Of a stretch of DNA of 64,000 nucleotides, positions 19,284 to 42,868 are shown piece after piece. The notes under the pieces were generated by a model. It was given only the letters and a program-made list of their open reading frames with translations, was not told the DNA's origin and did no database searches. Position 1 is the stretch's first letter. Each line of letters begins with the position of its first letter. Both the position numbers and the translations under genes were made by a program. Origin of the DNA: Methanomicrobiales archaeon (GTDB taxonomy: Archaea; Halobacteriota; Methanomicrobia; Methanomicrobiales; Methanospirillaceae); contig JANXYM010000012.1 in assembly GCA_025350045.1 (NCBI GenBank), forward strand, positions 1 through 64,000, given 5' to 3'.

Positions 19284-21131
19284 TTATTGCTGTACCTGTG
19301 CATCGGCTATTTTCTCTATCAATGCTTCGAGAACAACGGAGCGCATACCTTCAACAAATTTTATACTGCCAACCACCAGGTGCCCGCCCCCGCTGATGCC
19401 GCCACCGGGAATCTCGACTCGCAATTCCCTGACCATTTTTGGGATATTCATCAGGACACCGCGTGACCTGAGCACGGCAAAGTCCGGCCCAAATCCGATA
19501 GTAACAACCGGTTTGCCTTCATTCTGCTTACAGAGCCGGTCATGCACCTCACCGGATGTTTTACCCGGGGGTGGGAAGGTGAACTTGTGGGCATGGATCT
19601 CCACATCGAGAAGGAAGAGACGAGCCTCATTTTTTAAGACGCGGGGATCGATGTGGGCCATGCAGGCGCTCATCTGGTCAGCAATCATGGTGTTTGCACC
19701 ATCTATAAGGAGCACTAAGAGTTTCTTGTGGCGCTCGGTATTTCCGGTTAAGTTTAAGATATCCTTGACTATCTCCCGGCCATCATTAAACCGGAGCCAG
19801 AACTGTTCGTAATCAAGGGCAAGGGCAATATCCTTGCAGTGCTGTTCAGGAAAGTTGTCCTGCACAAGGGCAAGGAATAATGCCCGTTCGGGAGCCTCGG
19901 AGCGGTCTCCGACAGCTGCTACTGCCGGCAGGTGGCGGATCAACGATTCAACTTTGGGGTTGATCAACCGTGCGACTTCTGTGCCAAGCATACCTGCAGT
20001 GATGCCAAAGTCTCCCCCGACATGGTAGGGATTGACGTGAGCGAGGAGGTATTTGTCTATTGATGTATCCGGGTGGTGGTGGTCAATCACCACAAACGGG
20101 ATCTCGTAGACACTGGCGATCTTATAGGATGGTTCGTCTTCCTCGGTTGATCCATTATCCGTGAGGATCACGAGCGGCATCTTCTGGCCGAAACGGACAT
20201 GGTCTTTTAACGAGAAGTCAAGGTCACGGGTGATATCTTCGATCTCGTAGAACGGTGCTTTTGAAGGAGCCCGCTTGAATAAGAAGTACTCTGCATCAAA
20301 GTCCCCGCCACTCTCGCGGATAAGGGAAACAACTGCCTGCTCGATTGCCACCGCCGAGCAGATGCCGTCAGCATCCGCATGGTGCCGCAGAATGATCGGC
20401 TGGGAAGTAAAGACCGCTTTTCTGATGATCTTTGCAACCTTTCTCATCTCGGGACGAAGTTTTTCCATGACTTCACTCGGGACAAGGAGCGGGATATTCT
20501 CCGGCTCTGAACGGAGATCCAGTGCCTTTTCAATCCGTACCCTGACAACGCCTGCTTCTTCATCAGTTAGGATTGAAAGGCCGTCGACTTCAATCTGGAG
20601 CTGACCGTTTCTCATCATCACTTCGCCGATAAGCTTGACCATGTTCCCGAGTTCCGCTTCCGGATATGCCCGTACACCGGCTTCGATAAATGCGGCGCCG
20701 TTCTGCGTTCCGGTTTCATCAACAATGGTAAAGATGGTTGGACCACTCGTCTGTTTAATCTGGGCGATCTCACCTTCGATGGCTACGGTCTTTCCCAGTT
20801 TTGAAGGAAGATCGATTATTCTTACCGTGGTGGACTTCCGCTCCACATTCTCCACCTGGTATACCTGGTGCTGTACCTCTTCCAGATCGATATTGCCATT
20901 CGGTCTGATCTCGCGAACTTTGACCAGGATGGAATCGCGTTCCTTGTGTTCTGCTTTTACATTGCTCTTGTGCACAAGCCCCTTGATACGGTCATTTAAC
21001 TGTACGAACATACCAAAGGTTGCAAAACCCTGCACCTTTCCCTGGTAGATATTTCCTGCTTCTACGTCAGCAAGGTCACAGCCGGAACCAAGCCGGTACA
21101 CGAGCACATTGTTTGAATCGTTATTTTCCAT
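19284..21131 (-). CDS. Archaeal RecJ-like DHH phosphoesterase with S1 and OB domains
   Basis: A 615-residue protein. Residues about 20-90 form an S1 RNA-binding domain (GKVQGFATFGMFVQL, KGLVHKSNV). Residues about 100-185 form a nucleic-acid-binding OB fold. Residues about 240-430 are a DHH phosphoesterase domain (RHHADADGIC, LTDNGS, VIDHHHPD). The C-terminus carries DHHA1 with GGGISGGGHLVVGS. It is related to the archaeal RecJ-like nucleases (COG1107 type) and should act as a 5' to 3' exonuclease or a nucleotide phosphodiesterase; the substrate is not evident. It lies 168 bases downstream of the RNase Z gene on the same strand. ATG 21131 is preceded by a GAGAG-type site. Confidence 0.85.
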   Translation of the reverse strand: MENNDSNNVLVYRLGSGCDLADVEAGNIYQGKVQGFATFGMFVQLNDRIKGLVHKSNVKAEHKERDSILVKVREIRPNGNIDLEEVQHQVYQVENVERKSTTVRIIDLPSKLGKTVAIEGEIAQIKQTSGPTIFTIVDETGTQNGAAFIEAGVRAYPEAELGNMVKLIGEVMMRNGQLQIEVDGLSILTDEEAGVVRVRIEKALDLRSEPENIPLLVPSEVMEKLRPEMRKVAKIIRKAVFTSQPIILRHHADADGICSAVAIEQAVVSLIRESGGDFDAEYFLFKRAPSKAPFYEIEDITRDLDFSLKDHVRFGQKMPLVILTDNGSTEEDEPSYKIASVYEIPFVVIDHHHPDTSIDKYLLAHVNPYHVGGDFGITAGMLGTEVARLINPKVESLIRHLPAVAAVGDRSEAPERALFLALVQDNFPEQHCKDIALALDYEQFWLRFNDGREIVKDILNLTGNTERHKKLLVLLIDGANTMIADQMSACMAHIDPRVLKNEARLFLLDVEIHAHKFTFPPPGKTSGEVHDRLCKQNEGKPVVTIGFGPDFAVLRSRGVLMNIPKMVRELRVEIPGGGISGGGHLVVGSIKFVEGMRSVVLEALIEKIADAQVQQ

Positions 21132-41188: not shown

Positions 41189-42868
41189 TTACAGGGTTAT
41201 CTTCTTTAAGATCTGACCGTTCCGGAAGATGGTGATCACACCCCCGCTCTGGGAGACCACGATCCCCACCGTCTTGGTCACCTGCGTAATTGCTGCAACC
41301 GAGTTATGCCGCGTGCCCATTCCCGGGGGGAGTTTGACACTGCTCGTATCTACCGTAATATATCGCCCCACCGATTCAACGAACCCATCCCCGGTGATAA
41401 TAAAAGCACCGTCGAGCTGGGCCAGGGCCTTGATATTTTCCTTGAGCCCGGGATTCATCACAACCCTGGCTTCGGGCTTGTGCCCCTCAAAGGGATTTAA
41501 GATGATCTGGCGGGATTTTTCCAGCACGTTTTTGGTATCGCCGATGAGAAATGTGGTACCAACCGGCTTTCCTTCACGGCCCTCAATTGAGATCTCAGTA
41601 CAGATGTGAAAGACCGCATCAAAGACCTCTTCGTTTACATCGCTGTCGGCGATTACCAGATCCTTCCAGGTATCCGTGCTGATACGCACCACGCCGTCGC
41701 GTTTCCGGTCCGTAATGTCGTTACCGATACAGAGGATCTCGACAATATGTCCCTTCTCATCCCGGATGGCTTTGTTGATCCAGGCAATCCAGACCCGGTC
41801 GCCATTGCGCCGGACATTTTCATTCACGTTGACCGCATATCCTTCTGCATTGAAACCGAGATCGTCAGCCATCATGGAGAGATCATTACCGGAACGGGTC
41901 TTTGCCGGAACGATCGTACTGTTCACATTCTTTCCAATCACATCATCACTGGTATAATCAAAGAAGGCAAGAGCGTAGTGATTGAAGAACGTGATGATAC
42001 CCTGCATATCCATGCGAATGATGATACTCTGGGTATTCTGCACGACCTCCCGGTACTTAGCTTCACTCTCTTTTAATGCGTCAGCGATCTTCTGTTTTTC
42101 AGAAATATCGGTGATGACAAATGTTCCGCCCAGGCTGATGTCACGGGAATCGAGCGGCAGTACCTGCACCTGGCAGGCAAGCATTTTTTTATCCTGTTTC
42201 ACCAGCAGGCATGCGGATAGGCAAACTCCCCTGGCATCCCGTTTGAACTGCAGGGTACGCAAAAGGAGCTCGTACTCTTCGGGAGATACGAGGAAGGATT
42301 TGAGATCTTTTCCCACCATCTGCGACTCTTCATAGCCAAGCATTGCAGGGAACTGGCGGTTCACCCATTCGATGACACCATTCCTTGCCTGGAAGATACC
42401 CAACGGGGTTGCAGAAAGGATTGCGGCAAGCTGCTCGTTCTGCGCTTTTCCTTCGCGTTCGGATTTTTTCCGCAGGAGGGTCTGTTTGATTAAGTTGATC
42501 ATCTCAAAGACCTGCGGCCTGATGTCGCCGGTCTTTGGGAAGGAGATCTCGGTTCCATGGGCAACTTCCATGACCGCAATCTTCCCCGGTCCCCGCATAC
42601 CCAGGAGAATGACCGGGGTTACATTTCCCACTGATTTGAGGTACTTGATGAACTCGATCCCGTTCATATCCGAGACGAACTCGATCCCGTTCACATCCGG
42701 CTGCCGCTCATAGGAGACGATCACATCGTAATTGCGCCCTTTGAGTTTTTCTATCGCCTGTTTTATGGAATGGGCAGTATCGATCCTTATTTCCCCGGTC
42801 TTTTCCAGAAACGAGCGCACCTGAGCAAGGAGATCGGTAGTGTCATCGACAAACAAAACAGATATCAT
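41189..42868 (-). CDS. Receiver-PAS-PAS-diadenylate cyclase protein
   Basis: A 559-residue protein. Residues 1-125 are a receiver fold (SVLFVDDTTDLL), residues about 140-260 and 265-385 two PAS domains, and residues about 405-557 a DisA_N-type diadenylate cyclase domain. The cyclase has LDGAFIITGDG (DGA at 486-488) and PPGMGTRHNSVAAIT (RHN at 520-522 where the family normally has RHR). The receiver Asp is replaced by Tyr53 (VIVSYERQPD). Residues 58-75 are a doubled segment. The role suggested is synthesis of c-di-AMP under control of PAS-sensed cues. I start at ATG 42868; the frame extends 44 residues upstream without receiver sequence. Confidence 0.85.
   Translation of the reverse strand: MISVLFVDDTTDLLAQVRSFLEKTGEIRIDTAHSIKQAIEKLKGRNYDVIVSYERQPDVNGIEFVSDMNGIEFIKYLKSVGNVTPVILLGMRGPGKIAVMEVAHGTEISFPKTGDIRPQVFEMINLIKQTLLRKKSEREGKAQNEQLAAILSATPLGIFQARNGVIEWVNRQFPAMLGYEESQMVGKDLKSFLVSPEEYELLLRTLQFKRDARGVCLSACLLVKQDKKMLACQVQVLPLDSRDISLGGTFVITDISEKQKIADALKESEAKYREVVQNTQSIIIRMDMQGIITFFNHYALAFFDYTSDDVIGKNVNSTIVPAKTRSGNDLSMMADDLGFNAEGYAVNVNENVRRNGDRVWIAWINKAIRDEKGHIVEILCIGNDITDRKRDGVVRISTDTWKDLVIADSDVNEEVFDAVFHICTEISIEGREGKPVGTTFLIGDTKNVLEKSRQIILNPFEGHKPEARVVMNPGLKENIKALAQLDGAFIITGDGFVESVGRYITVDTSSVKLPPGMGTRHNSVAAITQVTKTVGIVVSQSGGVITIFRNGQILKKITL
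42644..42697 (-). repeat. 27-base tandem duplication in the receiver domain
   Basis: Two adjacent 27-base units encode DVNGIEFVS and DMNGIEFIK (residues 58-66 and 67-75). They differ at a few bases. The unit is inserted right after the phosphorylation-site loop of the receiver domain. It keeps the frame. Confidence 0.85.

Follow-up and report, generated by a model that had tools for sequence, protein, structure and literature searches.

The 64,000-nucleotide stretch of DNA analyzed here, hereafter the window, encodes a 559-residue protein that joins a receiver-like domain, two PAS domains, and a diadenylate cyclase (DAC) domain in that order (REC-PAS-PAS-DAC). Judged from its sequence, it is a real and conserved enzyme that is probably active. 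We consider it likely that this protein is an active c-di-AMP synthase of the DacX type, controlled through its PAS domains and a non-phosphorylated receiver, and that it probably serves K+ and osmotic balance. What this analysis adds to the probably known class is a built-in receiver that lacks the phosphate-accepting residue throughout the methanogen family. The interest of the system thus lies in its regulator and in its usual status as the only DAC of the genome, not in the RHN triplet of its active site.

c-di-AMP is essential in Haloferax and in many bacteria and, to our knowledge, how its synthesis is controlled in archaea is not known. A genus that nearly always carries one DAC, joined to recognizable sensor domains, makes this question testable with a single purified protein.

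The dacX-type gene occupies 41189..42868 on the minus strand, with its ATG at 42868 and its stop codon at 41189-41191. An earlier sequence-only reading had placed it correctly at these positions; the plus strand of the interval is riddled with stops. The start methionine is common to relatives by sequence comparison, and GGGAG sits a few bases 5′ of the ATG. The same reading had described a DAC, two PAS domains, and a receiver-like domain in one protein, and all four matches exceed their own Pfam cut-offs: Response_reg (REC) at residues 4-95 (E 1.1e-10), PAS at residues 145-258 and 271-387 (best E 2.6e-20), and DAC (DisA_N, PF02457) at residues 427-552 (E 7.2e-18). The DAC profile search, which that reading had offered as the test of its own assignment, recovers the domain with 64.7 bits where 27 would suffice (68 bits in the whole-genome profile scan). 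With the models considered, the receiver-like domain spans residues 1-115 (42524..42868, minus strand), PAS1 residues 145-262 (42083..42436, minus), PAS2 residues 271-390 (41699..42058, minus), and the cyclase domain residues 427-552 (41213..41590, minus). The cyclase domain is the most conserved of the four (mean identity 71%), followed by PAS2 (60%), REC (51%), and PAS1 (42%).

Occurrence and copy number

The nearest named contigs, from Methanoregula and Methanomicrobiales MAGs, are 87-91% identical across all 559 residues, which makes the host a Methanoregula. A DAC is carried by 58 of the 60 relatives searched, and 59 homologues with the REC-PAS-PAS-DAC layout, at 29-91% identity, could be aligned over their full length; on these comparisons, the finding stands far above chance. 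A profile scan of the genome to which the window belongs (G000, 95.9% complete) returned a single DAC match. The search for another DAC that the sequence-only reading had called for therefore yielded none besides the 559-residue protein, with the proviso that a second could sit in the missing ~4%. Among 23 Methanoregula genomes, each at least 90% complete, 19 carry exactly one DAC, single-contig genomes included, four carry two or three, and none lacks one. Those Methanoregula DACs whose layout was read are REC-PAS-PAS-DAC, and DAC frames run to ~560-630 residues in most Methanoregula and sister genera; other Methanomicrobiales families have mostly short DacZ. Across Methanoregula and its sister genera, REC-PAS-PAS-DAC orthologues stand in for the short DacZ of other Methanomicrobiales.

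A tree built from 158 DAC domains sets the Methanoregula-type sequences, a clade of 96 rows (SH-aLRT 98), apart from Methanomicrobiales DacZ. Five rows of this clade are labelled DacZ; each is either a DacX copy that is interrupted or lies at a contig end, or a paralogue at a contig end. Members of this clade have taken up REC-PAS-PAS, PKD, TPR, and TrkH partners. Some related DACs carry PKD domains (L135, L122, L048, L071, L080, L149, and L153), a number of them with what looks like a signal or membrane segment at the N terminus. Others carry TPR repeats (L112, L114, L143, and L133), and in one genome (G117) the TPR type is the sole DAC found. Interrupted REC-PAS-PAS-DAC copies, possibly assembly errors, occur in two Methanoregula genomes (L162:2698-4377, minus strand, and L004). 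A second DAC paralogue (L013, L068, L076, L124, and L146) has a more degenerate receiver-like domain, an MDGAF motif, and mostly Ser or Thr in place of Gln/Glu after VS; by its sequence, this paralogue may be an enzyme that is genuinely altered.

PAS domains and catalytic site

PAS1 is the least conserved domain, and PAS2 has an invariant Asn296 and Trp363. The sequence-only reading had proposed that a redox or ligand cue sensed by PAS governs c-di-AMP synthesis. In the redox version, the PAS domains would use heme or flavin to detect redox state or oxygen and so gate the cyclase. In its favor are the best Foldseek matches, which, among many PAS proteins, include FixL, DosP, NifL, and MmoS. 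Such matches, at 13-17% identity, reflect the common PAS fold and are expected for any tandem PAS. In the 59-homologue alignment, no position of either PAS domain is always His or always Cys, the best-kept cysteines being Cys232 (51 of 59 rows) and Cys380 (49 of 59), and no solved PAS structure matches PAS1 or PAS2 by sequence search. Since the PAS domains bear no heme or flavin signature, the redox cue is unsupported and we regard it as unlikely; non-covalent binding of FAD by these domains is possible.

The cyclase domain has both active-site motifs, namely, DGA (D486-G487-A488; 41405..41413, minus strand, read directly from the DNA) and GxRH (G518-T519-R520-H521). No variation occurs across the 59 homologues at D486, G487, G518, T519, R520, H521, or S539. 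The third Arg of the bacterial RHR motif is absent, replaced by N522 in the triplet R520-N522 (41303..41311, minus strand, likewise read from the DNA), which the sequence-only reading had singled out as an anomaly that put activity in question. We reject RHN as a loss of function. Archaeal DACs differ widely in the third residue: Methanoregula and genus g17 have N, related DACs have S, A, V, T, or G, and short DacZ-type proteins have R, L, M, V, I, or A. Being mostly non-Arg in archaeal DACs, this position is not family-defining in archaea.

The residues that have been tested in bacterial enzymes are kept. In Leptospira CdaA, D172A and R203A abolish activity and S222A halves it (PMC12974146); these positions correspond to D486, R520, and S539, with an R-to-S spacing of 19 residues in both proteins. 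In Staphylococcus aureus DacA, nucleotide contacts are made by the HDG Asp and Gly and by the Thr that precedes RHR (PMC6368335), and the counterparts of all three are present in the 559-residue protein. The inactive RHR-to-AAA mutant of the Mycobacterium tuberculosis enzyme (PMC3328451) alters all three residues at once. With the third residue variable and the tested catalytic residues invariant, RHN is no warning sign. A sequence search found no solved archaeal DAC structure.

A second replacement lies in Ser539-Gln540 (41249..41254, minus strand), where VSQSGG takes the place of the VSESGG of most ordinary DacZ; Gln540 stands where most DacZ carry Glu. Loss of a metal ligand through this Glu-to-Gln change is a candidate reading that was considered, and some short DacZ have Gln there as well. 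Taken together, RHR to RHN, Glu to Gln in most of the clade, and a receiver that is itself degenerate in the same protein could be read as the marks of a pseudo-enzyme, which would sense ATP or c-di-AMP by binding and synthesize nothing. Against this, the counterparts of the essential CdaA residues are invariant, no other domain of the protein is as well conserved as the DAC, and Gln and non-Arg third residues are found also in short DacZ, several of which are the sole DAC found in their genome. Moreover, a dead DAC would leave nearly the whole genus without c-di-AMP synthesis. A pseudo-enzyme is therefore quite unlikely, and an active DacX-type synthase remains the preferred reading.

The receiver-like domain and proposed control of the cyclase

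The receiver-like domain described by the sequence-only reading is indeed present; what that reading missed is that the phospho-acceptor Asp is absent from every homologue. It also passed over the family-wide occurrence of the layout, its very probable identity with the named class DacX, and the lack of any other DAC match in the genome. In an ungapped alignment, Tyr53 (TAT; 42710..42712, minus strand) takes the place of the CheY acceptor Asp at the end of β3. Over 71 rows, this position is Y in 50 and C in seven, the rest being F, N, R, H, P, G, or a gap; Asp occurs in none. In the acidic pocket, 63 of the 71 rows retain Asp9 and 16 have His in place of the first acid; the position of the switch Thr/Ser shows no conservation. 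The model of the domain (pLDDT 87) runs β1-α1-β2-α2-β3-α3-β4, followed by a strand in place of α4, then β5 and α5, the last of which continues into a long coiled coil. Its fold matches are to the receivers of KdpE, NtrC1, and CheY (Foldseek E 1e-4, TM 0.5-0.6 over ~94 residues), with helix 4 missing. A nine-residue NGIEF repeat in the β3-α3 loop is common to all REC-PAS-PAS orthologues of the family.

By these comparisons, the domain is a pseudo-receiver whose phospho-acceptor Asp has been lost throughout the methanogen family, a loss that would keep it from acting as a normal two-component switch. Phosphorelay control of the DAC through the receiver is unlikely; the module most likely serves dimerization or partner binding. 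An ordinary response regulator, switched on or off when a histidine kinase phosphorylates its receiver, would fit the placement of the domain among receivers by Pfam and Foldseek and the retained Asp9, and is nevertheless very improbable given an acceptor Asp missing from 71 of 71 rows, the His and unconserved switch positions, the absent helix 4, and the lack of any upstream neighbor common to the window, the rest of Methanoregula, and the sister genera.

The only neighbor kept in Methanoregula and genus g17 is a convergent acyl-CoA synthetase-like gene on the 3′ side. On the upstream side, most Methanoregula have LSm and HTH genes, the sister genera have a gene for a DEAD-box helicase, and the window has ilvE. 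With upstream neighbors so different, an operon or partner gene was rejected, and no kinase partner is suggested.

DAC enzymes require two domains face to face (PMC8573169), and the model of the protein, a monomer with a pTM of 0.49, shows long helices at residues 117-153 and 256-278. We propose that signals would arrive at the two PAS domains and at a non-phosphorylated receiver platform and be relayed by these helices to the DAC domains. Because DAC domains act head to head, such signals could set their pairing and with it the rate of c-di-AMP synthesis. The enzyme, the one diadenylate cyclase detected in this Methanoregula species, would convert two ATP to c-di-AMP. As in other organisms, this product most likely acts through RCK/Trk proteins to tune the balance of K+ and osmolytes. 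The literature searched offers no assay of any DacX enzyme and no report of c-di-AMP in Methanoregula.

Potassium transport and known cyclase classes

On the output side, RCK_C proteins, two TrkH, and an RCK channel are encoded in the genome. So is a 513-residue TrkA_N-DHH-DHHA1 protein (L181:937-2475, plus strand, contig C103), a candidate c-di-AMP phosphodiesterase. A further DHH protein in the window (19284-21131, minus strand; 615 residues, S1/OB-fold plus DHH) is probably an archaeal RecJ-like nuclease. Three genomes in two genera of a neighboring Methanomicrobiales family encode TrkH with a C-terminal DAC (L072:3378-5453, plus; L158:856-2997, plus; L201:368-2266, minus), whose DACs fall in the same 96-row clade; in each such fusion the potassium transporter has a c-di-AMP synthase built in, and no mention of them was found in the literature searched. 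Given the RCK/TrkH proteins of the genome and the TrkH-DAC fusions of the clade, K+ and osmotic balance is the likeliest role of c-di-AMP here, in line with Haloferax (PMC6741144).

More broadly, and tentatively, Methanoregulaceae may have dropped DacZ in favor of a DAC lineage of their own, in which the active site is changed (RH[N/S/A/G], VSQSGG) and the input modules can be swapped (pseudo-receiver-PAS-PAS, PKD with a membrane segment, TPR, or TrkH), and in whose REC-PAS-PAS branch a phosphate-independent Tyr receiver would be the regulatory platform of the genome's only c-di-AMP source. The literature searched contains no description of a family-wide loss of the receiver Asp or of a replacement of DacZ. 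For annotation, these results are a warning that the receiver is not to be read as a two-component input, nor RHN as a lesion. A 2023 survey of DAC architectures by Galperin reportedly covers archaeal forms too.

Compared with the receivers of KdpE, NtrC1, and CheY, the pseudo-receiver shares the first five or six fold elements but lacks the acceptor Asp and helix 4 and has the NGIEF repeat. Bacterial CdaA/DacA (PDB 6hvl, 4rv7, and 6gyw) have the same catalytic domain, with the D, first R, and S kept, whereas the 559-residue protein has no membrane helices and no His before DG, with RHN replacing RHR and VSQSGG replacing VSEETG. DacZ/CdaZ of Haloferax volcanii and Methanocaldococcus jannaschii has an archaeal DAC domain with the same DG and RH motifs. 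The usual partner there is DacZ_A, which is pyruvate-kinase-C-like (PMC6741144), and the sequence-only reading was right that the partner differs. This DacZ_A/PK_C-like N-terminal domain, present in the short DacZ L085 and L050, is absent from the 559-residue protein (P0001), which scores 109.9 bits over residues 366-555 with the NCBIfam DacZ model NF041371, below its cut-off of 430, and whose DAC lies in the separate 96-row clade (SH-aLRT 98). The closest counterpart is the class DacX, named by Corrigan and Gründling (2013, as cited in PMC6741144), under which the Methanoregula boonei DAC A7I8S2 and one from a Methanoregulaceae archaeon were listed in 2019 (PMC6741144). As the M. boonei protein is already there, the REC-PAS-PAS-DAC layout has very probably been catalogued as DacX, and the fusion itself is very probably not new. 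The 559-residue protein very probably belongs to this class: M. boonei is of the same genus, in which nearly every genome has one DAC, with this layout in those read.
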